NCBI GenBank assembly: GCA_017506865.1
Contig: JAFCMP010000556.1
Span: 310,001-374,000, forward strand
Direction: 5' to 3'
Source of the DNA: Tribonema minus
Taxonomy: Eukaryota; Sar; Xanthophyceae; Tribonematales; Tribonemataceae
DNA length: 64,000 bases
Below the pieces are notes generated by a model that was given only the letters and a program-made list of their open reading frames with translations, did no database searches and was not told the DNA's origin. The position numbers were made by a program, and so were the translations under genes. The first letter of the stretch is position 1. The number at the start of each line of letters is the position of its first letter. Positions 3,468 through 57,822 of the stretch are shown piece after piece.

Positions 3468-6012
3468 ATGGCTCGCGTCATGTTCTTTGCCTTGGTGGCT
3501 CTGCTGGTGGCCGCGGCCAGCGCCTTCGTCATGCCTGCCGCCCCTCGGTCCCTCCCCACCCGGCAAGTGGCGTCCTCCGGTGTAGCAGACGCCCTGGCAT
3601 CGGACATCGACTACGAGTCCCAGATCAAGACGATGGAGGTGAGATTCAGTCATGCATGCACCAACATATGTATACATATACATACAACGAACAACCAAAT
3701 GTGTGTATGTGTACGGGTTATCTATACATGCAGGTCACACATTCCCATTTGTCACCGATTGTGAGCCTGCTGGTGGCTGCTGATCCATGTCGCTTGACTC
3801 GGTGAACTGAGGAGTGCCGCTTCCTGCTGAGCGCGTGCAACCTCTCGTGGCAATCGCTACGCATCGTCTGAGGCACAACCATCAGGCAACACCACACCGC
3901 CGTGCAATGACTGTGCACGTAGCGCGCCCTCACTAAGTGTGCTTCATCAGCTCTCAGGCAGTTTCAACCGCTTTTGACATGCAGGCCCCTGCACTGCCAG
4001 CCCATCACTTCGCTCATTCCCCAGCGCGCCTCGGCAGCCGTATTTCTCCTTGAATCTCTAGCAGAGGCTGCCCATCAGTGCTCGACGATCGGAGAAATCG
4101 CTGCTGACCGTACGTCTACCCCCCACCTTTCAAGTCACATGTACTGAGTCCACTCAACGTGCCAAAAATCAATGCAACTATGAAATTGGCGAAAGGCATT
4201 TGCGGCTCACCACACCTTGTCACCTAGAGCTCTACGATCTTCTGATTCGTTTTCTTGTATCCATGGCTGCCAACAGAGGATTGGCCATGCCGCCTGCTGC
4301 AACAGCTCTGGCTACCTGTGCCTACACGTGCTGCGCTCACATAAATTGCTTCATGTCTGCCGAACGCGCCAAGGCTGCCAAACCCCCTGCTGCCGCACTT
4401 CTTGGCCCCCGGAGTCGCCGCCGCATCGCTCAGTTGTCTACGGAGAGGGGGGGGAGGTGGGGGGCTTGCAGGCTCTGCGCTGGGGGGGGAAGGGCATGCA
4501 GGCTGCACCCGGGGAAGGGGGGGGGGGGGGGGGGAGACAAGCACTGGGCAGTTGGCGCAGGGGCGGCGCTGGTGCTGACGTCGCGGTCTTGTGGAGCGCT
4601 GGTGGTCTGCGGAGCACTGATGGCACACGCCTGCCCTTAAACGAGCGACAGCCGCTGGCGAATGCGGCTGTGCAGACGGGCGTAGGTGGGAGAGGGGGGA
4701 GGGAGGAGGGAGGGGGGGGGGGGAGTCGCAGCGCAGAGCGGATATGCCACACGTCAACTGCGGATGCCACACGTAAAACAGTCTATGGATAGCACGGCGC
4801 AGCTCGCACCGTCATGTCGCCGTCTCACGTTGCACCGTGGCGTCGCCTCGTCCTTATGGCTAGGGTTAGGGGGTTTAACGTTAGGGTGAGAGCGTTGTGC
4901 GCATGCGCTGAGCTGTACTGGCGCAGGCTAGCCCTGACCCTAGTTCATGACGGCTCCAGCTGCGTATTGCGGAAACGTGGGATGGTGCTGAGCCCGCAGT
5001 GACGCTCCGCAGATGCGGGCATGCGCCGCAAGTGCACGCGGCGCTGCCTCCTGAGCACGCGTGCGCGCGCATCTGAGGTGGCGGACAAGGGGGCGGACCG
5101 GAAGCAAGGCCGCTCTGCCACGTGACCACTAAAGGATGTGATCTGATGGCGGCGCTGCTAGCAGTGCCGCTGTCACTGGGACGGCGCATCGTCGACGGCG
5201 TGCGCTCCCTTTGGGGTGTGCGCCAGGGCCTCGTGCGCGCGTCTCATGGCCATGACTGGCAGTGGGCACACTGCGCCGCCGCGCCATTTGCGCTGGTGGT
5301 GGCAGCATGTCGACTCCTTGAGGCGGCGCAGCGATCTCTCGAACATCGCCCTTAACCCTAACCCTAGGAGCCAACCTCAACCCTAGGAACATTGACCCTC
5401 ATCCTTCCCCTAACTCCTGCTTCAGCTACTCCAAAGTTGTCGTCACCAATCGGCGCTCCTGCGGCGCACGCCGCCGCCTGCGCTTTTTGCGCTTTTAAGG
5501 GTTGGGGACACTGCCCAGCTGCCGCTTCGCACAGCGTTCTCCCATTCAGCGCCGCAGGCAGGTGGAGGCGTACGTGCGTTGTGTGCATGTGGTCTAAAAG
5601 TCACCTTGCTCATCCCCCCTCCTCTCTGGTTTTCGTGTCCACCTGACGAGGCGAAGCATGCATGCAGTTTGTGTATATTGTCAGAAAGGAGATTGTGACA
5701 TCGCTCAAGCGCCCCCTGCCCCCTTCTTTGCCCCCACCCCGCAAGTTGGAGGCCACGGAGCGCATCAAGAAAGCCTTCGACACGGCGATCGTCAAGTCCG
5801 ATGCGCACTTCTGTACTTTGTCAGAAAGGAGGTGGTGACATTGCGCAACCCCCACCCCCCCCATTTATCATCGTGCCCCCTAGGTGGAGGCCAAGGAGCG
5901 CATCAAGAAGGCATTTGACGAGGCAACCGTCAAGTCGGACGCGGAGGCGAAGGAGCGGTGGGCGAAGCTCGAGGGCGAGATGAAGGCGGCCGCCGCCAGC
6001 GTCGGCCTCTAA
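3468..6012 (+). CDS. Small plastid-targeted coiled-coil protein, two exons
   Basis: Model: exons 3468-3638 and 5884-6012, both phase 0, giving about 99 residues. Residues 1-19 form a hydrophobic signal peptide (MARVMFFALVALLVAAA) followed by the motif ASAF and a basic, hydroxylated stretch (PRSLPTRQVASS). Phe directly after the signal-peptide cleavage site is the known hallmark of bipartite plastid targeting in algae with secondary red plastids. The mature part is a charged helix with two similar short blocks (EAKERIKKAFDE, EAKERWAKLEGE), probably a coiled coil. No enzyme motif is visible and I do not recognise the family. The intron (GTGAGA...CCCCTAG) is 2,245 bp and carries a truncated copy of exon 2 just upstream of the real one. 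The start is the first ATG of the only frame that gives the targeting signal. Confidence 0.72.
3639..5680. other. Intron interior with G tracts
   Basis: This is the bulk of the intron of the plastid-protein gene. It contains long G runs near 4445-4470, 4515-4535 and 4700-4725 and a CCCTAACCCTAACCCTAG tract at about 5351-5368. Apparent open frames of up to 190 codons overlap on both strands around the G runs and look compositional. I see no gene in it. Confidence 0.5.
5675..5813 (+). repeat. 5'-edge echo of exon 2 of the plastid-protein gene
   Basis: About 138 bp upstream of exon 2 lies a copy of the end of the intron (TCAGAAAGGAG...GTGACAT) plus the first roughly 20 codons of the exon, reading EATERIKKAFDTAIVKSDA against EAKERIKKAFDEATVKSDA in the true exon. 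The copy lacks the rest of the exon and the stop codon. Its acceptor-like AG is at 5744-5745. It is a clean two-copy example of the pattern seen in most genes here. Confidence 0.85.
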
Positions 6013-9023: not shown

Positions 9024-9116
9024 GCGCAGACTAGGCTGCTGCGTTGACGCAAGCTTTTCGATTGCATAGGCAACCCGGCCTCCCTTGGGCCTTTATAAAT
9101 ACAAGTCCATACGTAC
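9024..9116. repeat. 93-bp dispersed repeat, copy A, with TATA-like core
   Basis: This segment is identical base for base with 17741-17833. It includes AAGCTTTTCGATTGC, a GGCCTCCCTTGGGCC block and CCTTTATAAATAC. The TATA-like core reads in both directions. Flanking bases differ on both sides. It could be a promoter module duplicated 8.7 kb apart, or the remnant of a short mobile element. Confidence 0.9.
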
Positions 9117-16245: not shown

Positions 16246-16312
16246 TTGAGCAGGCCCTCATCGCCAACTCAAGGACTTCAAGGTGGGCTGCGGGGGGTTA
16301 TTCGAGCACAGG
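16246..16312 (+). repeat. Echo of the end of the CBS coding region beyond its stop
   Basis: The last codons (EALIAKLKDFKLGRGGFFEH) are repeated about 100 bp downstream in frame-broken form, with the G-rich tract and an ACTTCAAGTTGAAGT palindrome between. The duplicated unit therefore includes the stop codon and the start of the 3' UTR, so the duplication is not tied to splice sites alone. Confidence 0.88.
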
Positions 16313-17740: not shown

Positions 17741-17833
17741 GCGCAGACTAGGCTGCTGCGTTGACGCAAGCTTTTCGATTGCATAGGCAACCCGGCCTCC
17801 CTTGGGCCTTTATAAATACAAGTCCATACGTAC
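17741..17833. repeat. 93-bp dispersed repeat, copy B, with TATA-like core
   Basis: Identical to 9024-9116 over its whole length. The sequence immediately outside the match differs on both sides, so the borders are sharp. No gene start lies close by on either strand here, which weakens a simple promoter explanation. Confidence 0.9.
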
Positions 17834-19297: not shown

Positions 19298-22200
19298 ATG
19301 GTTGCGGCTGCAGCATGTGCGGCTCTGCTGAGTGTGCTGCTGGCATCACGAGTTGCAGCTGCAAACCTGCTAGACGGGCAGTGCGTTGCTGCTGGCGACT
19401 ACGATGCGGCAACTGATTACTTCCCCGACAAGGTCGCCGTCAACTACGCCAAGCAGTTCACAGTCACGTACCACAAGAACTACAAGACGGTCACCAACCT
19501 CAACGCTGGCCTCACGTACGTCCTCTACCAGTGCGGAACTCCCGACCCTGCCCTAGCCGTCGATGGCACTTTTGCTGTGCCCATCACGAGGCTGGCACTG
19601 GGCGATACCACCTGGATCAACCGCATCGAGCAGCTGGGAGAGCGGACGTCCATCGTGGCCTTCGGCACGGACCCTGCGTATGTGAGCTCGCCGTGCCTCA
19701 AGGTGATGTTGGCGGACAATATGACTGCGGATGCTTTCAACCAGAACACCTACTGCTGGGACAACGCTGCGCTGGAGGCTGCGGGAGTGAACGTGACGTT
19801 CAACGGCGATGCCCTGAACAGCTCTCCACGAAAGGTGCGACGTTCGCGCGGCGTTGCTGCACACAGCGTGCTGCAATTCTCTGCGCTTGCTGTGCATGAG
19901 AGCATCTGCTTCGGTACACATACATTGCACGCATCAGTGATTACTTCCAGTATTTATTTTTCCGAAGCGTGTGATTTATACAGAGAGAGAGTTCACCAGC
20001 GGGGGGCAGTGAACGCTGTGCAGCGATCAGTACCTTGGCGCTTCAATCAACAAGTTACATCAACTTACCATAGCCTTCAAAACAATTGGGGTGGCTATGC
20101 TGCTGGCGTATCAATCACCTGGTGCCCATATAGTCGTGTCACACCGTCAACCCTGAAGGCCACAGTGCTTCTCATCTCGGACCGCCCACAAATTCGCCAA
20201 GGCGTTGACAGAGTATTTCCTCTCCAGCGGCGCAGTCCACCATAACAGCCATGTACGTGGTTCCACGCACGCAGGATGGGCTACTTTGCCCCTATTGTTT
20301 TGCTGATGTTTGAGGCAGCATGGTGTACATGTAGACATGGCGTTGCGGTGGTGCGGTGTCCATGGAGGCGCTCCCAGAGGCGCGTGGTGACCTGCTGCAC
20401 GCTATGAGAAGCGTCTGCGCCCAGACCTATACACAGACCTATGCAATGTGCATCAGGGTTCGGGTTGGGGTGAAGGTTAGGGCTAGGGATAGATGCAGCA
20501 CAGACCACATGCAATTAATGCGGAGCAACAGGATCAACACAGCGACCAGCCGCTCCACAACCAGATTGGTCGTTGCCAGAGCGAATTTGATCTGCAAGAG
20601 GTTTGCAGTTCCGCGGTGCTGTCATGTCATGTCGGGTCTGCAGCGGCCTTGACATCAATCATCTGTGCTTTCTCGTGCCCTGGGCAAGCTTCAACAACAG
20701 GTGCTCCTACAATGAAGAAAGTCCAGGACAGTATGCAAAGGGAGTGTGACACGACACCTAACCCTAGCCCTAACCCACTACGGCCACGCCAGACCACGCG
20801 TGTACTCTGCGTTGCGCAACGAAGCAGCTGTGACTGCGGTCTGGCCGGCGCGCTGTTGGACTCACCCCGTCCCACGGCCATGCTATGTACTCACATCTAC
20901 TTCTATTAGTATATGCAGCCATGTATGCGCGGCAAATTCACGGCTTGACCCCGCTTTGGACCCCCTGTAACGCGCCGTCGTCTGCCGATGCGGCAGAGGA
21001 CGCGCGCTATGGCCTACACTCATCACATAATGAAGTAGTGGCCTCCATTCTACATGTGCATCTTATGTACTCATACCTATTCTCTATACTCTCATGTATG
21101 CGCGGCAGGTGTGCGGCAGCGACCCGGCCTCCGACCCCCTGTACAACTTCGTCGTTTTCAGCGCCGTAATTTTGCGTATGCACCTTGTGTACTCATCATC
21201 AAATACCTATATTATACGCAGCCATCACATATGCATCTTTTGTACTTATAATTATATCGTGTAATCTCATGTATGCGCGGCAGGTGTGCGGCAGCGACCC
21301 GACCTCGGACCCCCTGTACCACGCAGTGGTATTCAGCGACACCGCCGACGCGGCGGAGGACGCGCTGGGCCAGGCGGAGTGGATCAAGTTCGCGGCGCTG
21401 TTCTACAACCGTGAGGCGCAGGCGAACGCCGTATTCAACGGTATGGCCAGCAGGTACGTATGTGTTTTGCATATACGGTATGTATATGCTATGCGGGACC
21501 TGCATGCACCAGGCAAAAATTGATCTACAACGGTGTGGCCAGCAGGTACGTATCGCATGTACACAGTATGTAGAGGTACGTATATATACACTGCGCGGGA
21601 TCTGCTTTCACCAGGCAACATTGAAGTTTGTGGCACGCTTCCGCAACGCAGGCACGTATCGCATGCGTACGCTGCACGCGGCACTGCATGCACGCAGGCG
21701 ATGACGCAGTTCGGGCCGCTCCTCTACTGCGGCAGGATGTGTGTACTTGCAAACCGCATGTACCTGCGCGCGTGTGTACGGCAGCTCCTCTACTACCTCC
21801 TCCCTACGAGCGCGCGTGTGTTATCACCGTGCGCAGATGCCAGCGCGCCGCCGCCAGATGCCGTGACGCGCAGCGAGGTGCCCCCTGCGCCCCGCGTGAC
21901 GCACCCGTTTTGTCAACCCTACGCTCACATTGTCACATATTCTAATCATATGTGGTAGACAACATATACTTTGAAAAGTACGCAGCTGTACACAAAAGCG
22001 TACGTATACAGCTGCACCTACCTCCTTCATCTGCCACCAACGCCGCGACGTGCAGCGAGGTGCTGCCCCACCCCAGCCCGATGTACTCGTTGCATCATAT
22101 CATACATATAGGGTTGCACGAAAACGTATTTGGCCACACATATACGGCGTATTTGGGGCGTATTTGGCAACCAGGAATAAGTTTTTGAGCAAACCGCAAT

Positions 22201-25200
22201 ATGATAACATGCTGCGCGAAGGGCGTATTTGTGGGGCATGTGGTGACTCTGATCGATTCCAAGCATACAGTCCATCACAAAAGGGGCACTTGAACTCACA
22301 CATAAACTTCAAAATACGTCTTTTTGCAACCCTACATGCATACCCATCGTCTATCCACATGTCATGCGCAAACAGATATACGTGTACTAATTAAGAAATG
22401 CGTACAGCCATACTACCTCGCGCGTGCATTCCGTCGCCGCTTGCAGGTACGGGTGCACCGCTGCCAACGCCGTGACGTGCAGCAATGTGCCCCCCCCACC
22501 CAGCATCATGTACCTTTGCGTACCCACATCTATCCCAGCAATACCCATACATATCTGTACTACACATACACCATATAAAGCTGCACTCATTTGCCGCGCC
22601 CGTGTTATCGCTGTGCGCAGGTACGGGTGCACGGCCGCCAACGCCAATGCAGTGACGTGCAGCGAGGTCCTTCACCCTCACAGCACTATGTACCCATGCG
22701 TACCCATACCTGATCCAGCCATGCATGCCTACACATACCCGTACTATACATACCCCATACACAGCTGTACCTGCCACTAAACTGACTCGCGTGCGTGCAT
22801 TCTGTCACCGCTTGCTCCAAAACCGTGCGCGCTGGTACGGGTGCACGGCCGCCAACGCCGTGACGTGCAGCGAGGTGCTCCCCCACCTAGTGTGACATAA
22901 TTACTGTATCACACCATACCTTTGCGTATTCACACATATGATCACACTTGTATACATTGGAAGACCCTTGTATGTATATACATCACCAACCCCCTTCCTG
23001 CGCGCGCGCGCTTGCATTTTGCCGCCGCTTGCAGGTACGGGTGCACGGCCGCCAACGCCGTGACGTGCAGCGAGGTGCTCCCCCCCCCCAGCGTGTCGTA
23101 CTCCCCGGGCTACTACCAGGGCGGCTGGAACCCCAACGACGCCGATGCGTACTACGCCGTCAGCATAGACGCGGCGGGCGGCACGTTCGTGCTCTGCAAC
23201 GACACTAGCGGTGGCGTCTCCACATGTGAGTCTCATGTCGAATATTGTCATCAGACGTCTTTTTAGAATTCAAGGGGAAGTGGTGTGGCACGGTGTGCAC
23301 GCGTGCGTGCCATGGCTGCTAGGGCTGGGGTCAGAACCACGGCATGCAAGGCTGTGAGGCCGATGCGTACTACGCCGTCAGCAAAGACGCGGCGGGCGGC
23401 ACGTTCGTGCTCTGCAACGACACCAGCGGCGGCGTCACCACATGTGAGTATTTTAAAGTAAGGGCGAGGGTTCACCCCAACTTAACCCTAACGGAAAGTC
23501 GAATTTCTTAGAGTAGGGTTAGAGTGAAGGCTAGGGTTGTGATGCCGACGCCTACTACGCCGTCAGCATAGACGCGGCGGGCGGCACGTTTGTGCTCTGC
23601 AACGACACCAGCGGCGGCGTCACCACATGTGAGTGTTGTGGAGAGTCTTGGACGTTTTTAGTACTTCAAGTGGAAGTTGCGATGCGACGCAACCCTGAGC
23701 TTTCAGGGCTGAGTTAAAGTCAGGGTTAGGGCTAGGGGTGTGAGGCGCCTACTACACCGTCAGCATAGACGCAGCAGGCGGCACGTTTGTGCTCTGCAAC
23801 GACATCAGCGGCGGCATTACGACGCGTGAGTGTCATGTCGAGAGATTTTTTGCCTTTTTCTTGTCTTGAGCGTTTTCAAGATTCAAGTGGAGGAGACGAT
23901 GCGCCGCGGCTGTTAGGGCTGGGGTTGGGGTTAGGGTCAAGGCAAGGGTTGTGGGGCGAAGTCAGTTGAAGTACTATCTTCACAAATGACTCGCCGCCAA
24001 TCTTTGAGGCGGCGGGACGTGCTCGCGCGTCACATCATGATGCCGAACTTCCACACCCAGTTTCCCGTCTTTACGTGGGAGGCACCGCGTGGTTGTCACC
24101 CACCGCTCGTGTGTTGTGTGTGTGTGCATGCGTATGCGAGACCGGCCTTCGGCGGCTCGGTACACATCTGTGCCAGGACTACTCACAAGAAGCGGTATGC
24201 TTCACCGCGTGTTTGTCACCCGCCCCTCGTGTGTTGTGTGCGTGTGCCACGCGTGTGTGCGTGCGAGCAGCTTTCGGCACGCCCTTCGTCAGCAACGAGA
24301 CGTTTGTAGAGTGCAACAAGGCTGCCGACGTGTGCATCTTCGGCACGTGCTGGGACACCATCTACCCCGCGCAGGTGCGAGTGAACTGCGTACTTCAACT
24401 TGAATGACATACTTCAACTTGAATTGCACACTTCAACTTGAATTACATTGAATGCTCGGAAGTGTGCATCTTCGGCACGTGCTGGGACACCATCTCCCCC
24501 GCGCAGGTGCAGCTTCAACTTGAACTGTGTACTTCCTAAGTTGAATTACGTTGAGTGCTCGGACGTGGGCATCTTCGGCACGTGCTGGGGACACCAACTA
24601 CCCCAAGCAGGTGCGACTGCATACTTCAAGTTGAACTTTGCAATTTCACTTACAATGCCGAGCTTGGAATGTCGCGGTTAACTGCTTACCTCAACTTGAA
24701 GTATATGCATCAATGTTGTGGTACGCAACTGCATGCATACTACGCCACGTGCAGCAGTCTGACACCACACTACGTAAACATGTCTGCAAAGCACGGGAAA
24801 ACGACTACAACACTCGAGGTAATCGTGTACAGAAAAACGGCATCATTATGATTTTTGTGCGAGGAATGATGTTCCTCGCCGGCACATTGATCTGCAGGCG
24901 ACGTGGCTCGACCAGCTCTCATGTGCGGCGATCGCAATACACCTCAAAGGTCACGTACTGTATATATAGCTATAGAGAGAGACCTCAATATACATGCACA
25001 CAAGTGTCTTCATTGACGCAAAACTTCAGTGGCAACGAACACAATATGTACCTCAAAACGGGAAGCTTCTTACTCACATGTTGTTGCGCTGCAGGCGGCG
25101 TGGCTGGATCAGCTGGCGTGCGCGGCCAACAAGCGCGTGTACGACACTTTCGACAATGGCAATACACCTCTAACGTCATGCTTTTTGTAAAGAGAGAGAG

Positions 25201-27097
25201 ACCTGAACATACCTACATGCAAATATTTTATTGAAACAGACCTTTAGTAGCAACAAACACAATACCTCAAAAATTATAAATTTACTGCGCGCTGCAGGCG
25301 GCGTTGCTCGACCAGCTTGCGTGCGTGACCAACAAGCTCGTGTACGACACGTGTGGCAACCTCAACACGACGCATGCGGCAACATTACCATACATCACAG
25401 GCACCGAGAACAGCTTCCCATGAGTACATGTGTACAGAGAAAGAATCTAATTATCATGGGTGTGTGATCATAAACACGTCGTCAACGTTCTTTATACTGA
25501 TGCGTCGTCGTGCTGCAGGCGGCGTGGCTCGATCAGCTGGCGTGCGTGACCAACAAGCGCGTGTACGACACGTGCGGCAACGGCGACAAGGACTGGTTCG
25601 AGTCGCGCGTCTCCAACCCCGACGTCCTTCTCGAGGACTTTGTCATGGCGATACACAACGACAACACGCTGTTCGGCATAGGTGCGTACGAAGTAAAGCA
25701 ATCAAAATACATCAAATCAAATTGAGAAGGTATGATCTTGGTTAGTCTTACTCGGCAATGGTGGTCAATACTCGGCAATGGTGGTCAATACTCCCATGTG
25801 CTCCTGTACGACTTTGTCATGGCAATACAGGGCGACAACACGCTCTTCGGCATAGGTGAGCGGGCGACGTGAAGGGTTAGGTTTAGGGTTAGGGTTAGGC
25901 TGCCTTGCAGAATACTGCTGGCTAGGGTCAGGGTTGCGATTAGGGTCGGGGTCAACCTCATTCTAATCCAACCCTGACCCCACCTCTGACTCTAACGCCA
26001 ACCTCACCCTAACCCTACATGTTCTACATGCTTGCAATGATCGCGTGAATTTTATCAACCCCAACGTGCTCCTGGGGGACTTTGTCATGGCGATACATGA
26101 CGACAACACGCTCTTTGGCATAGGTGCGTACGCGATCCTGCCCCACTTCTGCACGCTGAATTTATCGGTGGGTTAATCTATAGACGAGTGCAACCAAACT
26201 GTAAGTTAGTTGGTCAGTCAACTCAGCCATGGCAGTTGCTAACTCCCACGCGCTCCACACGATGACAACACGCTAGTCGGCATAGGTGAGTCGTCGACGT
26301 GATGTGATGCCAGCACTCAATCCTTGCAGTACACTCAGCTGTTCAGTAGGGTCAGGGTTAGGGTCAACCCATCCCTACCATACTTGGAGCGGCATAGTGT
26401 TTGCGTGTGTTCTTGGCGGTTTTCCTACACGTCTCACAGTACATGCTTCCATGCGAGAGCGATAACCCCCACCCCCCCGCACACACCCCTCCATCCTACG
26501 CAGGCGCGCACCAGCTCGTGTGGCTGCTCGACGTCTTCACAGAGACCATCTAGCCGAGTTGGACGATATCTTTCTCCCTTTTTTTGCGCATCGGTACAAG
26601 ATTTACAGTACTTCAGAAGTAGATGCTTTCACGCGCGAGCGCTGAACCCCCCCCCCTCCCCCGCTTCTATTCTACGCAGGCGCGCACCAGCGCGTCTGGC
26701 TGCGGGGTGTCTTCACCGGGCATTGCACGATTTTTTTTACGCACTTTCCGTGTGCGTGTCAGATGCTTTTGTGCGTAAGCGATATAACCCCCCCCCCCCC
26801 CCCCCCCCCCCCGCTTACACTATCCCCCTTCCCCTCGTATTCTACGCAGGCGCGCACCAGCGTGTGTGGCTGCGTGACGTCTTCACCGAGACCATCCCCC
26901 CAGATGCAGGGGCGTGCCCCAACGTCACCGCCCCCGTCGTCTCCGCCGCCAACGAGTGCGTGAGCGTGCTCGCGCCGGAGTGCGTGAGCGTGCTCGCGCC
27001 GGAGTGCGTCGCGTCCGCCGCGCCGCCGCGCGCCGCCGCCGCCGCGCTGTCCGCCGCCGCCGCCGCCGTGTTCGCCCTGGCCGTCGCATTTTTGTAG
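19298..27097 (+). CDS. Secreted, membrane-anchored substrate-binding protein (iron-siderophore/B12 type)
   Basis: Exons 19298-19834, 21284-21453, 23035-23225, 24271-24374, 25519-25681 and 26850-27097 join in consistent phase to 470 residues. An N-terminal signal peptide (AACAALLSVLLASRVAAA) precedes a domain like the bacterial COG0614/Peripla_BP_2 family: AVNYAKQFTVTYHKNYK, YVLYQCGTPDP, VPITRLALGDTTWINRIEQL, EWIKFAALFYNREAQANAVF, AGGTFVLCNDTSGGVST, CNKAADVCIFGTC, NKRVYDTCGNGDKDWFESRV and PDVLLEDFVMAIH follow the family's order. Added cysteines suggest disulphides for an oxidising space. The C-terminus has the duplicated block ECVSVLAP, then an Ala-rich hydrophobic tail ending VFALAVAFL, as in a GPI signal or tail anchor. 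Such proteins bind ferric siderophores, haem or corrinoids in bacteria; an uptake role at the algal surface is inference, and a bacterial origin is likely. All five introns are filled with truncated exon copies. Confidence 0.87.
20880..21170 (+). repeat. 5'-edge echoes of exon 2 of the substrate-binding protein (2 copies)
   Basis: The intron end (ATGTATGCGCGGCAG) and exon start (VCGSDPTSDPLYH) are copied at about 20921-21012 and 21094-21168. The nearer copy keeps CAG|GTGTGCGGCAGC and reads VCGSDPASDPLYNFVVFSA. The farther one has lost the acceptor (GGCAAATTC). Units are about 175 bp and include T/A-rich intron sequence. Confidence 0.9.
21454..21720 (+). repeat. 3'-edge echoes of exon 2 of the substrate-binding protein (2 copies)
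   Basis: After the donor at 21454, copies of the exon end (FNGMASR) and donor follow at 21513-21560 (TACAACGGTGTGGCCAGCAG|GTACGT) and at 21620-21665 (CGCAACGCAG|GCACGT, donor lost). Each is followed by a copy of the same intron start, CGTATCGCATG. Confidence 0.85.
21830..22900 (+). repeat. 5'-edge echoes of exon 3 of the substrate-binding protein (5 copies)
   Basis: The exon start (RYGCTAANAVTCSEVLPPPS) is copied at about 21838-21890, 22028-22085, 22446-22510, 22620-22690 and 22834-22895, at 175-400 bp spacing, before the true exon at 23035. Acceptors are intact at 22441-22446 (TTGCAG|GTACGGG) and 22615-22620 (GCGCAG|GTACGGG), but changed at 22833 (GCGCTG|GTACGGG). The farthest copies are the most diverged. 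Each copy ends before the YYQGGWNP part of the exon. Confidence 0.95.
23340..23835 (+). repeat. 3'-edge echoes of exon 3 of the substrate-binding protein (3 copies)
   Basis: The exon end (DADAYYAVSIDAAGGTFVLC, NDTSGGVST) is copied at about 23359-23442, 23541-23628 and 23747-23826. The first two keep the donor ACAT|GTGAGT; the third has ACGC|GTGAGT. Between copies lie TTAGGG-like stretches. Decay increases with distance from the true exon at 23035-23225. Confidence 0.95.
24070..24175 (+). repeat. 5'-edge echo of exon 4 of the substrate-binding protein
   Basis: The segment CACCGCGTGGTTGTCACCC through GTGTGTGCATGCGTATGCGA and a start like AFGGS is a diverged copy of the segment that ends at the real exon start (AFGTPFVSN) at 24271. 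It has no usable acceptor. Confidence 0.65.
24445..24615 (+). repeat. 3'-edge echoes of exon 4 of the substrate-binding protein (2 copies)
   Basis: The exon end (ADVCIFGTCWDTIYPAQ) is copied at 24458-24506 (VCIFGTCWDTISPAQ, donor GCAG|GTGCAG kept) and 24558-24611 (VGIFGTCW, then a shifted end with GCAG|GTGCGA). The spacers contain several ACTTCAACTTGAA elements. Confidence 0.92.
24890..25400 (+). repeat. 5'-edge echoes of exon 5 of the substrate-binding protein (3 copies)
   Basis: The acceptor and exon start (CTGCAG|GCGGCGTGGCTCGA, coding AAWLDQLACVTNKRVYDT) are copied at about 24895, 25096 and 25299, at about 200-bp spacing, before the true exon at 25519. All keep the CTGCAG acceptor. The copy at 25299 reads ALLDQLACVTNKLVYDTCGN. 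Units also carry a conserved intron segment with GAGAGA and AACACAAT. Confidence 0.95.
25800..26290 (+). repeat. 3'-edge echoes of exon 5 of the substrate-binding protein (3 copies)
   Basis: The exon end (DFVMAIHNDNTLFGIG) and donor are copied at about 25809-25856, 26075-26124 and 26260-26286. Each ends GGCATAG|GTGAG or GGCATAG|GTGCG. The nearest copy reads FVMAIQGDNTLFGIG. CCCTAA/TTAGGG tracts lie between the copies. Confidence 0.93.
25874..25899 (+). repeat. Interstitial telomere-like tract
   Basis: Several TTAGGG units with one TTTAGGG, inside an intron of the substrate-binding-protein gene among exon echoes. Confidence 0.85.
26455..26725 (+). repeat. 5'-edge echoes of exon 6 of the substrate-binding protein (2 copies)
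   Basis: Copies of a C tract, TTCTACGCAG and the exon start (GAHQRVWLRDVFTETI) begin at 26504 (GAHQLVWLLDVFTETI, then TAG) and at 26680 (GAHQRVWLRGVFTG). The true exon starts at 26850. Each unit has its own polypyrimidine run. Confidence 0.95.
26788..26812 (+). repeat. C25 homopolymer before the last exon
   Basis: An uninterrupted run of 25 C lies 37 bp upstream of the acceptor at 26848-26849 and may serve as its polypyrimidine tract. Shorter C runs sit at the same place before both echoes of this exon. Confidence 0.9.
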
Positions 27098-35804: not shown

Positions 35805-38800
35805 ATGACGCACAGGGACGCAAATCTATATGGCATCCTGGGAATTGAGCCAAATGCCACCGCCGAAGATATTCGCAGGTATGTGGAACCGAGAACGACA
35901 CTGCAGATTAGCCAGCGCTGTGTTATTATTCCTGGAAAAGTCTGAGTACATCCAACTTGACTCAGAGTGAGCCACTATGTCGCCTCATACGTACGACACT
36001 GTGTGACAATCTGTAGCTGGCGAAACCCTGCGTGCTGACGGTACCTGCCGTCCAGTACACTTATCGTGCCAGCGAGCTTGAAATATACATCTTACAGAAT
36101 GGCCACGGTGGATGCATTGACTATTGAAGTTGGTCGATTTTTGAAAAAAACGATAGAAATGCGCATGAATCTTGTGGCTTGCGATAGCTCAAATGAAAGC
36201 AGACACTAAGAGCTTTCGACTGATGCCTGCAGCAAAGTGCTCAGCCGCCGTGGTCAGCAACTAGCTCACTTGGGGGGGACCCGTGCTCAGCAGCGATAAC
36301 GCGCAGCCACATAGCTCACGCCCATGATAGGGGAGCACTTTGCAGTGGCCATTTTCGGCACAATAAGAAGTTACTTTCACGTTTTCACTAGCGAGTTACC
36401 CCAAATTTGTGCGCATTTCGGGTCAAACTTTCAAAAGGCCGATGGGTCAGAAATCCTATAATCTGAGCCGAATTTGTAAGGGAACCCTTTCAAACGTCAC
36501 TGCAGTTGTGTAACGACACCCAGAGGCGGCGGCACAGGTCCGCACGTCCTTCCATGCTAAAGGGCCACCTGCCCTGCTTGCCAGCTCCAGGCTGCTGTAA
36601 TGCACACCGGCGCGTGCCCGACCCGACCCGATAATGTTTGCATACTTCAAAGTACGTATATGCCGTTTAGAGGTGATTGCAGTGCTACAATTTCAAGACG
36701 TTTGCAACCACACATATAGATTCTGGTTGCAAGTCCATGGACATCCACCATCTAGGCTTTTTTGCGCCCTGAGCGTACATTTATGAGGAGTACATACTTC
36801 TATGTACCTTTATTTCGAGGTGAATTTGCGGCCCCTGAGGGGTTATAACGGTGCCACTTGACACAGCTACGCTGGACGAACACAGCGCTTACAGCACCAA
36901 GATACGGCGTTACAAGTTCAGGCCATTGCACCTCACCGCGGCATGCACAGCGGTGGCTACCTAGTACCAAACTGCGATCAATCAATTCATTTGGCGAAGT
37001 CACTGCATCCACCATTGTCATATTATTCTCATCAGCTTGTACTGAACATCACAACATGGCATCGGCCAGCATCAGCTGTGCTGCAGCGACGACATCGTGC
37101 TCAGTATGCCCACCAAGTGCACGACGCGTCTATCGCAGCTGCCGCCTGTCCCTGAGCCTGCCTCTACAAGATCGCTGCTGCAGTACCGAACTGCAGCTAA
37201 CCACTCTCACGCACTACTAGCTAGACTAGGGTTAGGGTAAGAGCTAGGGCTAGCGGTCAGCGCATGGCGCCCGACCTCCATTGCTCAGCTGTGCCGCCCG
37301 CTTCTGGAGTGCGTGTCCACACAAACTTCAATTTTGAACATCGAATCTGCACCTTTTGCAGCGTTGTGACAAGCGCCGCGCTGGGGCGTTTGTCAGCAGC
37401 GCTCCGCACGGCACAACTGGTCATGTTGCTGCGTGCGCGTACAACCAAATCTGCCACATATTACAGTTAGGCCTGACCCTATACCCTGAACATCACATCT
37501 TGCGCCCGCGCGACGGCGGCGCGCCACGCCACGTGCCTTCATTGGTCATTTGCCGAGTGCTCGCATAGCAGAATTTGCGCAGCACACGCCGCCGCTTCTC
37601 ACACGCGCGCGCGCGCATGCGGTGCGCTGCTCGCTGCGCTGTCGTCACTGCCATTGCCAGCGCATGTGCGTGACAAAAATGGCGCGTCCGCACAGATGCT
37701 CTGAGCCCTGCGGTGGCCGCGCGCGCGCATGCGGCCGAAGCCGCGCGCCGTAGCATCCCCCGCCGCCTCTCGCTGCCGCCTGTCTCCTGGCCAAACCTGG
37801 CCAAACCCTAACACTAGGTCAAATGCATAGCGTCAGCGTCATCAGGGCTTCAAAACTGCGGAGTGCGTTCACCACGGCGGCGGCGCGCGCGCATGCACGT
37901 GGCGCGCACGCACGTAAACCGAATCTGCCGCAGGTCATCATCATCTTTTGCGCCGCCTCTTAGGGTTAGGGTTAGGGTTAGGCGCCCGCTCCTCGCCCCC
38001 ACGCAGAGCGTACCTGGCCAAGGCGCGCGCGTGCCACCCCAACATCACTAGCGCGTTGAACGATGCGCGACGAAACCACGTGTGCCGCCGCGGCAGCGTG
38101 TACGCATGCACTCAAAACCGACCATCCGCGCGCACGCATGCACCTACCCCGAATATATATATGTGGCGTACCTGGCCAAGGGGCGCGCGGTCCACCTGAC
38201 GTCAACGGCGCTTCGAACGGCAGAACACGTGGTTAAGGGTTAGGGTTTGGGTTCGGTGCGCATGCGCATGCACTTAACCGAATTTGCACGCCCTCCCGAC
38301 ATCTCCCGCACGTCACTAGCGCTTTGAACGCGTATGCCACTGCGGCAGTGCGCACGCATGCACTCAAACTGAGTTTTCACGCGCACGCGTGCACTTACCC
38401 CGGAATATAGGGCGTACCTGGCCAAGGCGCGCGCGTGCCACCCCGACGTCAGCAGCGCTCCGCATAGGTGACACGTGTCTGTGTCACCCAGCCACAAGAC
38501 CAACTTGTCGCAACATTAGGCAACGCGAAGTGCGGTCATATGTTCATCATCAGCGAGTTCGTGCACGCGCACGCAACCGAATCCGCCGCAAGTCGCAACT
38601 ATTTCTGCCGCCTCTTGCACCCGCTACTCTCACCCCCATGCAGGGCGTACCTGGCCAAGGCGCGCGCGTGCCACCCCGATGTCATCAGCGCTTTTAACGG
38701 CAACAGACGTATATCATGACGGCAGTGCGCGCATGCAAGCGGCCGAATCCGCCACGCGTCATCATCTTTCGGGCCATTTGTTGCGTCCGCTCCTCTCACC

Positions 38801-41800
38801 TAAATCGATGTTGCCCTCACTGCAGGGCGTACCTGGCCAAGGCGCGCGCGTGCCACCCCGACGTGAACGGCGGCGCGCCACACGCTGCGGAGGCCTTCAA
38901 GCGCGTCGCGCACGCGCACGAGACGCTCAGCCACCCGCTGCGCCGCGCGCGCTACGACGAGGCGCACGCGGGCGGCGGCATGAGCTCCGGCGCGCACTAT
39001 ACCTACCCTCGCGGCAGCGGTTACGGTGGTTACGCGGCAGGGGGCGAGGATTTGAGGGGGTTTGCCGGCAGGGCCTCCGCTGCCAGAGGTGCGTCGCATT
39101 GGCATGTATGTATGCATATTTGGCTTTACTCTAGGTTCCGCTGCGGAGTGCGCGCATGACTGGGTGAGAGCTGCGGCGTGTGCAATTAGGGTTCCGGTCA
39201 GGGATATGATTGGGGCTGGGTTAGGGCTAGGGCTGGGGCTAGGTTAGGGTTAGGCGGTGGCGCACCGCTGCGGCGCGCACGCTACGACGAGGCGCACGCC
39301 GGCGGCGGCATGAGCTCCGGCGCGCACTACCCCTACCCCCGCGGCAGTTACAGCGGTTACACGGGGCGAGGACCTGCGGGGGTTCGCTGGCAGGGCCTCC
39401 GCTGCCAGAGGTGCGCCGCGTGTATTTGTCCCGGGTAACGTGCTTTAAGGTGTGCATGCATGATGAGCCGCACGCCGGCGGCGGCATGAGCTCTGGCGTG
39501 CACTATACTTACCCTCGCAGTGGCGGTTACGGCGGCAGTTACGCGGCGGGGGGCGAGGATCTGCGGAGTTCGCGGGCAGGGCCTCCGCTGCCAGAGGTGC
39601 GCCGTGTTTACTTGCCTCGGGGCATGTACTTCAGGGTATGTATGTGTGGCGGTACTGAAGGCTTCAAGCCTGGGCGTTGGTTCCGCTCTGGTGGGCACGC
39701 ATGTGAGAGCCGCGACGCGTGTGATTGTTATTAGGGTTGAGGTCAGGGCTAGGATTAGGGCTGGGATTAGGGCGAGGGTTAGTGTTAGGGTTAGGGCTTG
39801 GCGCACCGCGGCGGCATTCACATCGATGGAGAGTGAGAGGGCGCCCGTCAAAACTACTGTAAAGAGTGCTCGATGTGCCTCTGCCGCAGTGGGAGCGCTT
39901 TCATGAGGGCATGTCTGGAGGCTTTTAGGGTGTGGGTTTCGCCAGCAGTGCCTGAGCAGGGCCCAGTTGCTGGCATCATCGAGTTACTGGTACTGGGTGC
40001 AGGTGGCTTCAGGGGTATAAAGGGTATGGGTTTGCCAGCAGTGCCTGAACAGGGCTCAGCTGCTGGCATCACTGAGTTTTTAAGGTGCAGGTGGCGGCAG
40101 CTAACACAAGTCGGAGCGTACCTGCTGTTCATTGAACTTCAAAAGTGGAGACTCTGACCTTCCTCGCTCTTTCAAACGATGCAGGGCGCGCGCACGTCGC
40201 GATCTCCACCATCAGCATTCAACTTCAAATATGAAGTTACTGATCCTCCGCGCTCTGTACAGCGACGCAGGCGCGCAGCATTCAACTTCAAATATGATTA
40301 AGCTCTTTTGATTCGCTTTCATGAGCTTGCTGTCCCCCGTCGCTCGCTTCAACGACGCAGGCGCGCGCGCTTCGCGGTATTCGCCATCGACGCTCGATGC
40401 CTTCATAGACCAGCCTCAATATACAACATACAGCGGCTAACCACTCCTTGTCATCTAGAGCTTTACGATCTTTTGTTCCGTTTCCATACAGCAAACTTTG
40501 ATCCCGTGGCTGCCAGGCAGCAAATTCATGGCTGCCTGGCAGCCACGGGACCGAACTTTGGTGTAAGATGAACCGCAGCCTGGCAGCCGCGGGCACAAAA
40601 TTTGGTGGAAAAAGCACTGGTCCATGCACTATGGAAACTCACTTACAATACGACCTTTCTGACCTCTGTGCGCGCCGGGGTCCTCGGCTTCGGCGTTTAA
40701 CGCCCTGGACGTTCTTCATGCACCCGCGCGCCTCATGTTTGAAAATGTACTTAAAATGTGAACTTTGTGACCTCTTCAGGCGCGCGTGCAGCGGGTCCCT
40801 CGGCGTCGGCACTCAACGCCCTGGATGCCTTCACCATTACTTCAAATGTGAACTTCCGACTTCTCTGCGGGCACGCGCGCCCGCGGTGCATGCACCTGCG
40901 CTTTCATGTTCCGAAACTTACTTCAAAAGTGAACTTTGTGACCTCCCATGCAGGCGCGCGCGCGTCGCGGTCCTCGGCATCCGCGTTCAACGCCCTGGAT
41001 GTCTTCGTGCACCCGCGCTTCATGTTCAGAAACTTACTTCAAATGTGAACTTTGTGACCTCCCGTGCAGGCGCGAGAGCATCGTGTTCTTCGGCATCGGC
41101 GTTCAACGCCCTGGACGTCTTCATGCACCCGCGCTTCATGTTCGGGGTGCTGCCGCTGCTGCTGCTGGGCGGGGGGCTGGTGGGGGGGCTGCTGAGCACT
41201 GATGACGGCGCGACCAAGCGGGCGCCACAGGGCGACAAGGTGCTTTTGGTTCTGCACTTTGTATCAGAGCCGCCTGACACACCGCTTGCTGTGTCTGGGC
41301 ACCAGAGCCCATGTTGAAGTCTGTGGGGTGCGGTGTGACCCAGGGGCAGGCAACGGGGGGAGGGGGCTGCTGAGCGCTGATGTCACGCGTATGCTCACTT
41401 CAACTTGCGCGCGAACGCCCCGCATGGTTTGACCCCGCATGGCAGCGGCGGCAGACGCTGTGGGTGCACCCCCCCATCATCAACAATCATCAGGTGGCTC
41501 GATAATTGCAACGCGTACGCTCGCTCCAATTTCTGCGCGCACCCCCCGGCGGCGGGGGACTGCATCTTTCAGCTCCTCACCAATGAACACCAGCTAAAAA
41601 AGCTTCATGCGTACGCTAACTTCAACTTTCGCGGAAGGCCCCTAGGTGCCCGCGTGGTTGAAAACCGCGTCTCAGCGGTGGGAGACTGCGTAATGCAGCT
41701 TCTCATCGACAAGCACTCGCTCGACAAGTGCGATGGAAATGCTCACTTCAATGTTCGAACCCCCGACACCGTGGTTCGTAGCCACGCGCTTGCGTGAACG

Positions 41801-42064
41801 CGCCCAGGTGCCCGCGTGGTTCAACCCCGTTGCAGCGTGGTTCAGCCCCCCACCACCAACAATCACTACAGTAGCTAGAAGAGTGCCACGCAAGTGCTCA
41901 CCTCAATGTTTGCTCAAAACCCTCAGGTGCCCGCGTGGTTCAACCCCGCGTCGCAGCGGTGGGAGACGCCGTCGCCGTGGGACCCTCGCTACCGCGCGCA
42001 GCTGGCCAGAAACCCGGAGCAGATGGTCGCGCGTCACAAGGTGCACCAGTCATCACCCCCGTAG
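35805..42064 (+). CDS. J-domain (DnaJ-like) membrane protein, four exons
   Basis: Exons 35805-35878, 38826-39088, 41070-41239 and 41927-42064 join in phase to 214 residues. Residues 6-70 are a J-domain: NLYGILGIEPNATAEDIRRA, then YLAKARACHPDVNGG with the HPD motif needed to stimulate Hsp70 ATPase, then FKRVAHAHETLSHPLRRARY. A Gly/Tyr/Ser-rich linker follows (GGGMSSGAHYTYPRGSGYGG). Exon 3 encodes NALDVFMHPRFMFGVLPLLL and a Gly-rich hydrophobic stretch, probably one membrane span. Exon 4 encodes VPAWFNPASQRWETPSPWDP and a short basic tail. The arrangement, J-domain then one span then a W-x-x-P-rich tail, resembles small membrane J-proteins of mitochondria or plastids in algae and plants; the compartment is not shown. 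Introns are 2.9, 2.0 and 0.7 kb and carry many truncated exon copies. Confidence 0.87.
37960..37982 (+). repeat. Interstitial telomere-like tract
   Basis: About three and a half TTAGGG units in the first intron of the J-domain gene, just before the first echo of exon 2. Confidence 0.85.
38000..38710 (+). repeat. 5'-edge echoes of exon 2 of the J-domain gene (at least 4 copies)
   Basis: The exon start, coding AYLAKARACHPDV, is copied at about 38008, 38165, 38410 and 38644 before the true exon at 38826. The copies read AYLAKARACHPNITSALN, AYLAKGRAVHLTSTAL, AYLAKARACHPDVSSA and AYLAKARACHPDVISAFN. The copy at 38644 keeps the acceptor ATGCAG|GGCGTACC. So the HPD motif of the J-domain is present several times as fragments that cannot make a J-domain. 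A weaker trace is near 38290. Confidence 0.95.
39268..39605 (+). repeat. 3'-edge echoes of exon 2 of the J-domain gene (2 copies)
   Basis: The exon end (YDEAHAGGGMSSGAHYTYPR through CCAGAG|GTGCG) is repeated at about 39272-39413 and 39465-39600. Both keep CCAGAG|GTGCGCCG as a donor. Small indels break the frame relative to the true exon. Confidence 0.95.
40180..41065 (+). repeat. 5'-edge echoes of exon 3 of the J-domain gene (about 6 copies)
   Basis: The acceptor GCAG|GCGCG and the exon start (SASAFNALDVFMHPRFMF) are copied with varying decay at about 40185, 40268, 40359, 40670, 40780 and 40952 before the true exon at 41070. The copies nearest the exon (40780, 40952) keep GCGTCGGC or CATCCGCG with TTCAACGCCCTGGA. 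Units also carry an intron piece, ACTTACTTCAAATGTGAACT. Confidence 0.92.
40503..40549. repeat. Perfect 19-bp inverted repeat with 9-base loop
   Basis: Arms 40503-40521 and 40531-40549 are exactly complementary (CCCGTGGCTGCCAGGCAGC on the left). A partial third copy of the arm (CAGCCTGGCAGCCGCGGG) follows at about 40575-40592. It lies inside the second intron of the J-domain gene among exon echoes. Confidence 0.93.
41350..41885 (+). repeat. Echoes of exon 3 end and exon 4 start in the third J-domain intron
   Basis: One 3'-edge copy of exon 3 (GGGGGCTGCTGAGCGCTGATG) is at 41360-41380. 5'-edge copies of exon 4 (VPAWFNPASQRWETPSPW) are at about 41417-41460, 41646-41690 and 41810-41860. The last two start GTGCCCGCGTGGTT, the first of them after CCTAG and the second after CCCAG. 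The true exon starts at 41927. Confidence 0.88.
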
Positions 42065-42289: not shown

Positions 42290-42460
42290 GCAGATGGTGG
42301 CACGTCACAAGGTGCACCAGTCGTCGCCCCCCTAGCCGACGCTGCTGCCGCGCCGCTGCCGGTGCCGCCGGCAGCAGTGGCACCTGCCGATGCTACCGCT
42401 GCTGGCGTTGCCGCTGCCGCCACAAGGTGCACCAGCCGTCACCTCCGTAGCCGCTGCTGC
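42290..42460 (+). repeat. Echoes of the end of the J-domain coding region beyond its stop (2 copies)
   Basis: The last codons and stop (MVARHKVHQSSPP, TAG) with the CCG/CTG-rich start of the 3' UTR are copied at 42292-42345 and 42418-42455. The first copy still reads MVARHKVHQSSPP with TAG in a row. Triplet-rich 3' UTR sequence separates the copies. Confidence 0.93.
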
Positions 42461-45879: not shown

Positions 45880-46611
45880 CTAGCCGCACTTGGTGGTGAC
45901 CGCGCCGCCGCTGCTGCTGACCTGGCACGCCTGGCCGGCCTTGCAGCAGACGTTGTTGGGCGTCGCCGGCGTGTAGCTCGGGTAGTACTTGTCGATCGCG
46001 TACTTAAGCTTGAGGGGCGACTTGGTGCCGCCGCACGCCTTGCGCCCCTTGGCGCACGCGACCGGCTTGAGGCACCTGCAGTGTGTTTTCCAGCGTCCAG
46101 TGTGCATGCGTCAGCATCAGTGTCACGATGAAACACCGTCATGTGTAGGTATGGATGCATGCATGATGTTGGCACGCGCTGACCAAAGCGCCTTGCGCCC
46201 CTTGGCGTACGCGACCGGCTTGAGGCACCTGCGGCGCAACTGTTGGGGGAGTACAGGTTAGTGCTTCGGTGTTGGCCTCACGTTGCGCCGTCAGGCTGCG
46301 CTGGGCATGCATGGTTCGCACGTATTGATGTTGAGAACCAACGCGCCTTGCGCCCCTCGGCGCACGCGACCGGCGTGAGGCACCTGAGGGTAGATTCAGC
46401 GCGTGCATGCGCGTGCGCGCGTCGGCGTCAGTCTCATGATACGATACTGTCAGGCTGCGCATGTGTACGCATGTATGCATGTACTTCAACTTGAAGTATG
46501 ATGTTGGCGCGCGCCCCGATGCAACGTGCCTCGCGCCCCTCGGCGCACGCCACCGGCCTGAGGCACCTGCAATGGTACAGGGTCGCGGCAGAGAGGTAAC
46601 CTAACCCTAAT

Positions 46612-46647
<36 letters not shown>

Positions 46648-52600: not shown

Positions 52601-53889
52601 TGCGAATCAGCGGCAAAGAAGCGAGTCACTTGCCCTACAAAGTGTTGAACTTGCACATTTGTGAAATGATGTCTGCCGTTGGTGGGCTCGCACAGGTGAC
52701 CGCCGCTGTGCGCTCTGGGTTAGCGTTACGTTGGGGTTAGTTGCTGTGGCGTCTGTCATGCTGATTTGTGCTCTGATTGCGGCCTAGGGTTTAGGTTGGG
52801 GTAAGGGTCGCTGTGGCGTCAGCAATCCTGATTCATGCCCTGCTTGCATCCCTGCCCCTATAAACTCTCAGCGCCCGCCATCGCCGCGTTTAACAGCTGA
52901 ACACATTGAAATGGCAAGCAACGATGGGCCTTAGAGTGAGGATTCCATCGAGCGCTGCTTGTAATGTAAATCTAGTCACCTAGCCCTAATCCTGAGCCCT
53001 GACATGAAACAGCGCAGTGAGGCCACCAGACAATCTGATGATCCTTGATGCAGTAGGCGCGCATTGTGGCTGCGAACATGAGCACTGCCTCGCGAACAGT
53101 ACAGTCAGAGGCAGGGTCGATAGCAGGATTAGGGTTTAAGAAGGCCCATGTGCCGTCTTCGCGCGCCTTCTTTTGCCTTCTCTGTCTTCAAAAATCGTCT
53201 TGCTCCATTATGGTGAATAAGCGCTTTGTGTGAGCATTGTGGCCGCTACCACACCGGCCACTGCCCACGGCCTTCTGATGCATTCATATATTAATTCATG
53301 CATTCTTCATTTATCGCTGTAGATCACCTGGGCAGTACCCCTAGACTATCTGACGTTGCCGCGCGTCTTGTCTGCAATCCATAAGAACCCCCTTCGCTGT
53401 CCATTCATTCTCTCGTTCATTCTATTCATTCAATCACTTCATCGCTGTGAATCACCTGGGCAGTACCCGTACTTGACGTTCTTGCGCGTCTTGTCCGCCA
53501 CCCCATTCGCTATTCATTCATCCATACATTCATTCACACATTCATTGCCGTGAATCACCTGGGCAGTACCCGTACTTGACGTTCTTGCGCGTCTTGTCCG
53601 CGATTCACGTGAAACCTTTCATTATGCATTCATTCATTCATCACTTTTTCATTCATTCATCTCTTCAAATCACCTGGGCAGTAGCCGTACTTGACGTTCT
53701 TGCGCGTCTTGTCCGCGATCCACGTGAACCCCTTAGGGCAGCCACACGCGCTCCCCGCGCCGCACGTCGCCTTCACCCCCGACGTCTGCGACTTGCACTC
53801 CGACTTGTCCGGGCACGTCACCGACTCCGCCAGTGCCCGCTCAACCTCAACTTCAACATCAACTCCGCCGTGCTGCCGCCGCTGCTCCT

Positions 53890-57477: not shown

Positions 57478-57822
57478 AACTTCAATGCTAATGTGCGGCG
57501 GCGGCGCGGCCCGCGCTGCGCGATCGCGAGCGCTGGTTCTGGCTCGACTCGTGGTCCCCCCTGCATAGCGTGATGACTGAGGGGGCAAGGGGGTCAGGTA
57601 CAGTAGGTCTGGGGTTGCGTTTACCTTGCGCCTAGCTTCAACCATAATATGTGGCGGCGCAGGGCTCGTGCTGCGCGACCGCGCACACTGTTCCTGGCTC
57701 GAAGGAGCCGTTGCTTTGCTGCTCACCTTCACGAAGGCCATTGTCGACATAAGTAGATTGAAATTGAAGACTTGAAGTTGAGTCGACTCGCGGCCCGGCG
57801 AGCGCGATGACCGAGAGGGCAG
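57478..57822 (+). repeat. Echoes of the end of the membrane-protein gene beyond its stop (2 copies)
   Basis: The final codons (PPPGLALRDRVRFWLG through DRDD, stop) and following G-rich sequence are copied in decayed form at about 57492-57590 and 57645-57835, the second interrupted by about 60 bp of unrelated sequence. Matching pieces are CGCGCTGCGCGA, TCTGGCTCG, GATGACTGAG and CAGGGGGTA. Confidence 0.8.

Follow-up and report, generated by a model that had tools for sequence, protein, structure and literature searches.

The window analysed here is a 64,000-nucleotide stretch of the genome of Tribonema minus, a yellow-green alga of the class Xanthophyceae (Stramenopiles), and it lies on a contig of 569,972 bases (C553) in an assembly of 158 Mb. 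One gene of the window matches the NCBI protein JKP88DRAFT_351713 of T. minus. The gene of main interest encodes a protein resembling substrate-binding proteins (SBP), and its introns contain partial copies of the edges of the exons that adjoin them. Such a copy of an exon edge inside the adjoining intron is called an echo in this work, and was accepted at a score of at least 17 or at least 20, as stated. The gene and the copies in its introns are as follows.

19298..27097, plus strand: SBP-like gene with six exons (19298-19834, 21284-21453, 23035-23225, 24271-24374, 25519-25681 and 26850-27097), GT-AG introns, a continuous frame and a matching transcript-derived protein, P0001
20935..21283, plus strand: intron 1, acceptor-side array of exon 2 with echoes 20947-21005 and 21109-21163 in steps of about 175 bp, from alignment, intron flank co-duplicated
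21454..21665, plus strand: intron 2, duplication on the donor side of exon 2, unit 102 bp, of which 20 nt are exon (21526-21545), below threshold in exon-only tests
21837..23034, plus strand: intron 2, acceptor-side array of exon 3 with echoes 21845-21904, 22033-22088, 22447-22513, 22621-22684 and 22835-22899, identities 0.81-0.92
23226..23825, plus strand: intron 3, donor-side array of exon 3 with echoes 23356-23443, 23541-23628 and 23747-23815, identities 0.88-0.94, GT intact in 3/3
24083..24270, plus strand: intron 3, 120-bp duplication by the exon 4 acceptor (24083-24257), ambiguous as its exon part is too short, scored as non-border in the placement test described below
24375..24610, plus strand: intron 4, donor-side echoes of exon 4 (24451-24506 and 24557-24610), from alignment
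24898..25518, plus strand: intron 4, acceptor-side echoes of exon 5 (24898-24927, barely at threshold, 25095-25160 and 25298-25367), from alignment
25682..26285, plus strand: intron 5, donor-side echoes of exon 5 (25790-25855, 26056-26123 and 26257-26285), from alignment
26504..26849, plus strand: intron 5, acceptor-side echoes of exon 6 (26504-26550 and 26680-26718), from alignment

When joined, the exons form an open frame of 470 codons (470 aa), and the five introns, all GT-AG, are 1449, 1581, 1045, 1144 and 1168 bp long. P0001, a EukProt protein derived from a Trinity transcript of a close relative with about 96% identity, aligned over all five junctions and carried no residues from the echoes, so that the exon model is independent of the repeats. 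A tblastn search of the window with P0001 matched the true exons and, as separate matches, the intron echoes. Three of the 29 relatives found for the SBP carry the source name iron-complex substrate-binding protein, and a Pfam search of the protein returned no family at an E-value of 0.1.

Iterated alignment of each exon with its adjoining introns gave 20 echoes in the SBP gene at a score of at least 17 and 19 at a score of at least 20, each containing 28-88 nt of exon and differing from it by 6-20%. The original prediction had reported 23 partial copies of exon borders in these introns. This number was about right, being approached by the 20 echoes together with the 20-nt case at the exon 2 donor and the ambiguous case at the exon 4 acceptor. 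Seven of the ten SBP edges scored 37-78 in the adjoining intron, whereas the best of 100 dinucleotide shuffles per edge scored 16-21, and the scores of the exon 1 donor, exon 2 donor and exon 4 acceptor were not above their shuffles. The highest score of any SBP edge against the non-adjoining introns was 16.5. Sixteen of the 20 echoes extended to the border within 1 nt, and a side rule held throughout the gene: copies on the acceptor side repeat the beginning of the exon that follows, and those on the donor side repeat the last part of the exon before. For 11/20 echoes in the SBP gene and 13/17 in an HSP70 gene on another contig (C190), 24/37 in total, the similarity of the intron flank to that of the true border exceeded the 95% level set by random pairs of introns, indicating that the duplicated unit usually crosses the border.

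Three further observations concern the SBP gene itself. Exon 6 contains an exact, in-frame 24-nt tandem duplication of 8 codons (26954-27001) that is absent from P0001. P0001 is 5 residues longer than the SBP in the region of exon 1. Long C runs lie near the 3' splice sites (from 26788 onward and at other acceptors), one of them of at least 17 C, and may be prone to slippage.

Echoes were also found at other genes of the window, and some of them lie beyond stop codons. The features identified, with CDS standing for coding sequence and ORF for open reading frame, are listed below.

3468..6012, plus strand: gene for a 99-aa protein, exons 3468-3638 and 5884-6012, one acceptor-side echo (5747-5805), with transcript-derived protein P0031
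13203..16211, plus strand: CBS-domain gene, last three exons 13203-13373, 14816-14911 and 15960-16211 (CBS PF00571, E 2.8e-24)
Plus strand, within the CBS gene: donor-side echoes 14973-15032, 15144-15208 and 15613-15670 and acceptor-side echo 15783-15882
16247..16310, plus strand: echo of the end of the CBS gene CDS, 3' of the stop codon, score 46 against a null maximum of 18.5 (184 placements)
35805..42064, plus strand: DnaJ-domain gene, exons 35805-35878, 38826-39088, 41070-41239 and 41927-42064 (DnaJ PF00226, E 4.2e-20)
42290..42450, plus strand: two echoes of the end of the DnaJ gene CDS, 3' of the stop codon, scores 36 and 33 against a null maximum of 21 (179 placements)
46000..48273, minus strand: two large arrays at the edges of predicted coding segments 45889-46071 and 48215-48400
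53278..53732, minus strand: array at the edge of predicted coding segment 53681-53734
57491..57726, plus strand: two echoes of the end of the CDS of a GC-rich ORF ending at 57415, 3' of the stop, scores 34.5 and 28.5 against a null maximum of 26.5 (200 placements)

The DnaJ gene contained 16 intron echoes at a score of at least 20, and no transcript relative of it was found. For the 99-aa gene, neither P0031, derived from a transcript of the close relative, nor the paralogue P0032 contained an echo-derived exon. Stop-codon edges gave echoes above all 179-200 random placements in 3/5 genes, namely the CBS gene, the DnaJ gene and the GC-rich ORF. The stop edge of the SBP gene was not significant (best score 27.5 against a null maximum of 45), and that of the 99-aa gene had no echo. 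The upstream flank of start codons contained echoes in 0/3 genes tested, as expected, because an upstream copy would supply an early start. Under general duplication followed by a selective filter, echoes should occur wherever coding meets noncoding sequence and the inner copy stays whole, and stop codons qualify. Arrays were also present thousands of bases away from any predicted coding segment. Splice borders are thus not the sole sites of duplication, and the proposal that duplication is confined to exon edges applies to the borders and has to be widened to stop-codon edges and to arrays far from coding sequence. One sampled locus (L019, 597-9204) contained several tandem arrays of up to 97% identity with no predicted coding segments.

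Within the window, 80 of 96 self-matches were direct and less than 1 kb apart. When the window was combined with 19 sampled loci of 10 kb (16 random and 3 flanking or near the window), 318 self-matches were direct and 16 inverted. Coding segments in the sampled loci were predicted by a codon score for which four gene models served as the training set; weak exons were missed, and some arrays counted as far from coding sequence may adjoin unrecognised exons. Predicted segments with a GC content above 0.72 were dropped, which removed 11 of the 36 window segments and left 25. Around these 25 we counted 51 direct copies (33 near plus-strand and 18 near minus-strand segments) and 3 inverted ones, some copies being entered twice where an echo had itself been called coding. 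The total of roughly 80 copies originally given for the window is plausible. At the 16 random loci the same filter kept 36 of 60 segments; 19 of the 36 had a local copy, with 63 copies against 11 inverted matches, and three loci (L017, L018 and L027) showed no local direct self-match.

We compared edges and exon cores in eight gene models, four from the window and four HSP70 loci, two of these with a single intron each; the window genes had been chosen partly for having echoes. An echo in the adjoining intron was found for 23/48 exon edges (60 nt) and for 1/30 exon cores (60 nt), the edges thus exceeding the cores in this sample. At a stricter threshold, 2 of 124 comparisons of edges with non-adjoining introns passed. 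All edges with echoes adjoined introns of at least 600 bp (23/36, and 0/12 at shorter introns); with the echo-free intron of HSP70 C544 placed among the shorter ones, as its length of 599 bp requires, the split becomes 23/34 against 0/14.

The HSP70 genes, whose exons are fixed by conservation, differ in their echoes. C190 and C522 have five intron positions in common; the introns of C190, 502-1726 bp long, contained 11 echoes at a score of at least 20, and those of C522, 198-531 bp long, contained none. In C41, the intron at the first of the five positions had one recent donor echo with an 85-bp unit, and the single intron read in C544, at the same position, had no echo. Paralogues alike in their introns, some with echoes and some lacking them, provide a natural experiment. 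C522 carries two HSP70 genes, at 954544-957873 (minus strand) and 981609-984842 (plus strand), which are oppositely oriented, separated by about 24 kb and alike in exon layout.

Genes at loci taken by position were also affected. A phosphofructokinase (PFK) exon (PF00365, E 3e-8) had six donor echoes and one acceptor echo. A myosin gene (PF00063) had 27 direct edge copies, one of them counted from two segments, against 5 inverted control matches; 14/14 low-side copies began no more than 18 nt from the low exon edge, and 13/13 high-side copies ended no more than 9 nt from the high edge. Two edge copies lay beside a segment of an rRNA dimethylase (PF00398, below the curated cut-off) at another sampled locus. 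Tandem duplication of short border-spanning segments with a functional inner copy was therefore seen on both strands and in sampled genes outside the window. The suggestion that it is genome-wide is supported by HSP70 C190, PFK and myosin among the genes sampled. A recurrence in every multi-exon gene, as originally given for the window, does not extend to HSP70 C522 and the C544 intron read. The distance from the border to the outermost echo made up 59% of intron length in the SBP gene, 53% in the DnaJ gene, 38% in the CBS gene, 28% in HSP70 C190, 12% in C41, 6% in the 99-aa gene and 0% in C522 and C544. The echoes can thus be called the main source of intron length in, for example, the SBP and DnaJ genes, but not in every gene. 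Intron growth is usually explained by transposons; in these genes a large part of some long introns can be traced, copy by copy, to duplications of neighbouring exon edges.

A wider set of 52 echoes was used for divergence, coverage, step and splice-dinucleotide figures. None of the 52 covered at least 90% of the exon. In the echoes of the SBP gene and HSP70 C190, the exon parts were 71 to 100% identical to the exon. Steps from border to border had a median of 175 bp, 49/52 lying between 85 and 268, and when a sharp nucleosome-sized period was sought, the offsets of all arrays proved broad. Over all 52, echo and live exon differed at 125/1113, 127/1115 and 211/1117 sites of codon positions 1, 2 and 3 (11.2, 11.4 and 18.9%). 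By our own estimate, the neutral expectation for a free echo compared with an exon undergoing synonymous change is about 1:1:1.7. A free echo diverges evenly, with the synonymous changes of the exon added at position 3, so that a ratio near 1.7 is expected, as was observed. The echoes of HSP70 C190 were nearly even (14.2, 15.3 and 17.5%). Each echo is a record of decay beside a conserved parent, and the duplication events are datable in principle. Among the 41 echoes that reach the border, AG or GT was intact in 36, with 32.2 expected under neutral decay. Junctions bounded by repeats were seen in recent cases, namely the C41 unit (offset 85, match of 91 columns) and the 24-nt duplication in SBP exon 6.

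The structure had been thought undescribed, and this did not hold, as the "mirages" of lancelets are of the same kind. Mirages occur in amphioxus Adh3, the globins BflGb6 and BflGb9, PGBD5 and troponin C (PMC3087553, PMC3902484). The globin units are 150-160 bp long, many but not all retain AG/GT, splicing was reported to be normal, the BflGb6 units are homogenised (81-100% similar), and the mechanism was called unclear (PMC3087553). PGBD5 has 60- and 108-bp repeats over splice sites, and troponin C is also named (PMC3902484). The accounts cited here are single-gene reports with haplotype and somatic length instability. The echoes of Tribonema share the mirage anatomy, lying at both donor and acceptor borders and keeping AG/GT in many copies but not all (36/41). 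Lineage, density, decay and stop-codon edges differ. Tribonema is a stramenopile alga in which echoes occur in 6/7 of the gene models that have an intron of at least about 600 bp, as well as in genes from loci taken by position regardless of content; its copies are mostly well diverged, stop-codon edges are echoed, and in some genes the share of the intron is large. What is new here is therefore the lineage and the breadth, the structure itself being already known from single lancelet genes. The density of such arrays in a stramenopile points to a general route by which introns may grow, and screening for it is possible. Among the titles and abstracts listed by our literature search, which covered few subscription papers, none indicated such echoes in Tribonema or any other alga.

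Other known processes are less similar. Duplication of AG/GT proto-splice sites as a route of intron gain (Rogers, as cited in PMC3087553) likewise involves tandem duplication with splice signals, but no new intron arises in the HSP70 genes, where the intron positions of C190 are those of the echo-free C522. Slippage or end-joining yields tandem duplications that are direct and local like the echoes, with short-repeat junctions like those of the recent cases in Tribonema, but the density and the placement at coding edges are distinctive. Whole-exon tandem duplication, which gives alternative exons, is local, tandem and within the gene as well, but the echoes are not near-complete exons.

We consider it highly probable that the echoes are mirage-type arrays, the neutral remains of recurrent short tandem duplications. 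For this reading we observed the anatomy, the direct orientation, the co-duplicated intron flank in most echoes tested, the neutral-like decay and, at one and the same intron, the presence in some HSP70 paralogues only. Short imperfect repeats would, probably through slippage or end-joining, give rise to a head-to-tail duplication of a segment of about 85-270 bp that comprises an intron end and the edge of the adjoining exon. Of the two copies, only the one still joined to the exon body could yield the old mRNA and would be kept by selection, and the other would become intron. The spare splice sites would be ignored, the inner site most likely being paired with the far end of the real exon by exon definition. 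Repeated rounds would produce arrays and longer introns, in which the spare copies decay without constraint, and duplications within exons would mostly be purged by selection. Duplications that cross a stop codon into the 3' flank would be tolerated, because there too the inner copy stays whole. The innermost position of the intact copy and the lack of complete exon copies, both correctly noted at the outset, need no special mechanism, as geometry and selection suffice. If the genes of the close relative carry echoes as well, its transcript-derived proteins support, for two genes, that echoes are skipped in mRNA.

Several results weigh against this explanation. The NCBI model P0030 (114 aa) of the 99-aa gene includes the echo as an extra in-frame exon. 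For annotation this means that the public model of one window gene has an echo among its exons, and further public gene models may be affected. No intron-flank similarity above the null was found for 13/37 echoes, for which co-duplication would follow from spacing alone. In the SBP gene taken by itself, divergence was 8.8, 7.1 and 20.0% by codon position, about 2.5-fold at position 3 and above the neutral estimate, related echoes not being independent. Breakpoints were inspected in a handful of recent cases only. Finally, intergenic parts of the window contained 3 arrays in 23.2 kb, compared with 4 and 9 matches (7 arrays by manual grouping) in the 5.2 and 4.9 kb of introns of the SBP gene and C190, and with fewer intergenic arrays a purely general process leaves the difference in density unexplained.

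The strongest alternative is that borders are true hotspots at which nucleosome or Okazaki-fragment ends, R-loops or C-rich tracts of acceptors raise duplication beyond the selective filter. Masking of exons and echoes leaves similarity derived from the intron, for which arrays at borders and in the interior should be about equally detectable. Masked introns of the eight gene models contained 15 arrays, and 13/14 were at borders after an interior-looking array at 40130-40276 had been judged to belong to the exon 3 acceptor array and merged into it. In the placement test, for which array rows, border verdicts and collapsed intron lengths were entered by hand, 5.3 were expected at collapsed intron lengths (P < 1e-5). 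With ancestral introns of 330 bp the same count gave P 0.006, and with 200 bp P 0.23. The HSP70 subset, with 4/4 at borders, gave P 0.007, 0.06 and 0.25 for collapsed lengths, 330 bp and 200 bp, respectively.

Tests on wider samples were likewise mixed. At the random loci 7/10 intron arrays touched a border, with 3.5 expected (P 0.014), the tolerance of 60 nt favouring touching. After arrays with a GC content of at least 0.70 had been dropped, 19/26 window arrays overlapped coding sequence, with 9.7 expected (5 of 2000 shifts as high); the 16 random loci gave 18/43 against 14.0 expected (146/2000), and with the three loci flanking or near the window 25/57 against 17.6 (15/2000). Masked arrays within 150 bp of coding sequence numbered 35/76 against 26.5 (a count reached in 8 of 300 simulations), and arrays at 150-1200 bp were in deficit. 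The border counts at collapsed lengths, in the random introns and in the window speak for hotspots, as does the median step of 175 bp, close to a nucleosome repeat. On the other side, geometry may suffice at 200-bp ancestral introns, the coding overlap at the 16 random loci was equalled or exceeded in 146 of 2000 shifts, unit lengths are broad and not sharply nucleosomal, and the window genes were partly chosen for echoes. The uniform-placement tests are mixed and depend on the assumed ancestral intron length, the excess at borders over the intron interior being significant only with ancestral introns longer than about 200 bp, and a border hotspot is not claimed as proven. We regard hotspots as possible and hold the idea tentatively. 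The more specific proposal, that borders are hotspots of a structure-tied process (nucleosome-phased Okazaki ends or co-transcriptional breaks) which copies a roughly nucleosome-sized segment as a one-way ratchet and is the chief source of intron length, appears doubtful.

That the echoes are functional, as alternative exon edges or splicing regulators under selection, is improbable. The retention of AG/GT, the in-frame use of an echo in P0030 and the excess at position 3 in the SBP gene could be taken in its favour, but P0001 and P0031 of the close relative lack echoes, the excess of AG/GT over neutral decay is small, the pooled codon-position divergence fits neutral decay with C190 nearly even, and HSP70 C522 has no echoes at all. 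Nothing in the evidence compels a function.

Copying of exon ends into introns by an RNA-mediated or transposon-like process, as with introner-like elements, would account for many copies located in introns and is very hard to reconcile with the other data: the copies are direct, consistent in side and usually accompanied by co-duplicated intron. As to dispersal over other loci, 8/8 genome matches listed for an exon 3 query fell in the SBP gene (such counts being lower bounds), and non-adjoining comparisons passed in the 2 of 124 cases given above. An assembly artefact, conceivable as repeats are difficult to assemble, is scarcely credible when the SBP copies are 6-20% off the exon, each with its own intron sequence, and the exons are confirmed by the transcript-derived P0001.

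Two other kinds of repeat were noted in the window. An identical 93-bp block occurs twice, at 9024-9116 and 17741-17833, ending near a TATA-like TATAAATA (by eye), and may be a shared promoter or what remains of a mobile element. Telomere-like (CCCTAA)n/(TTAGGG)n tracts of at least 2 units were present at 13 sites, including 13870, 25883, 46617 and 47502, in introns as well as intergenic DNA.
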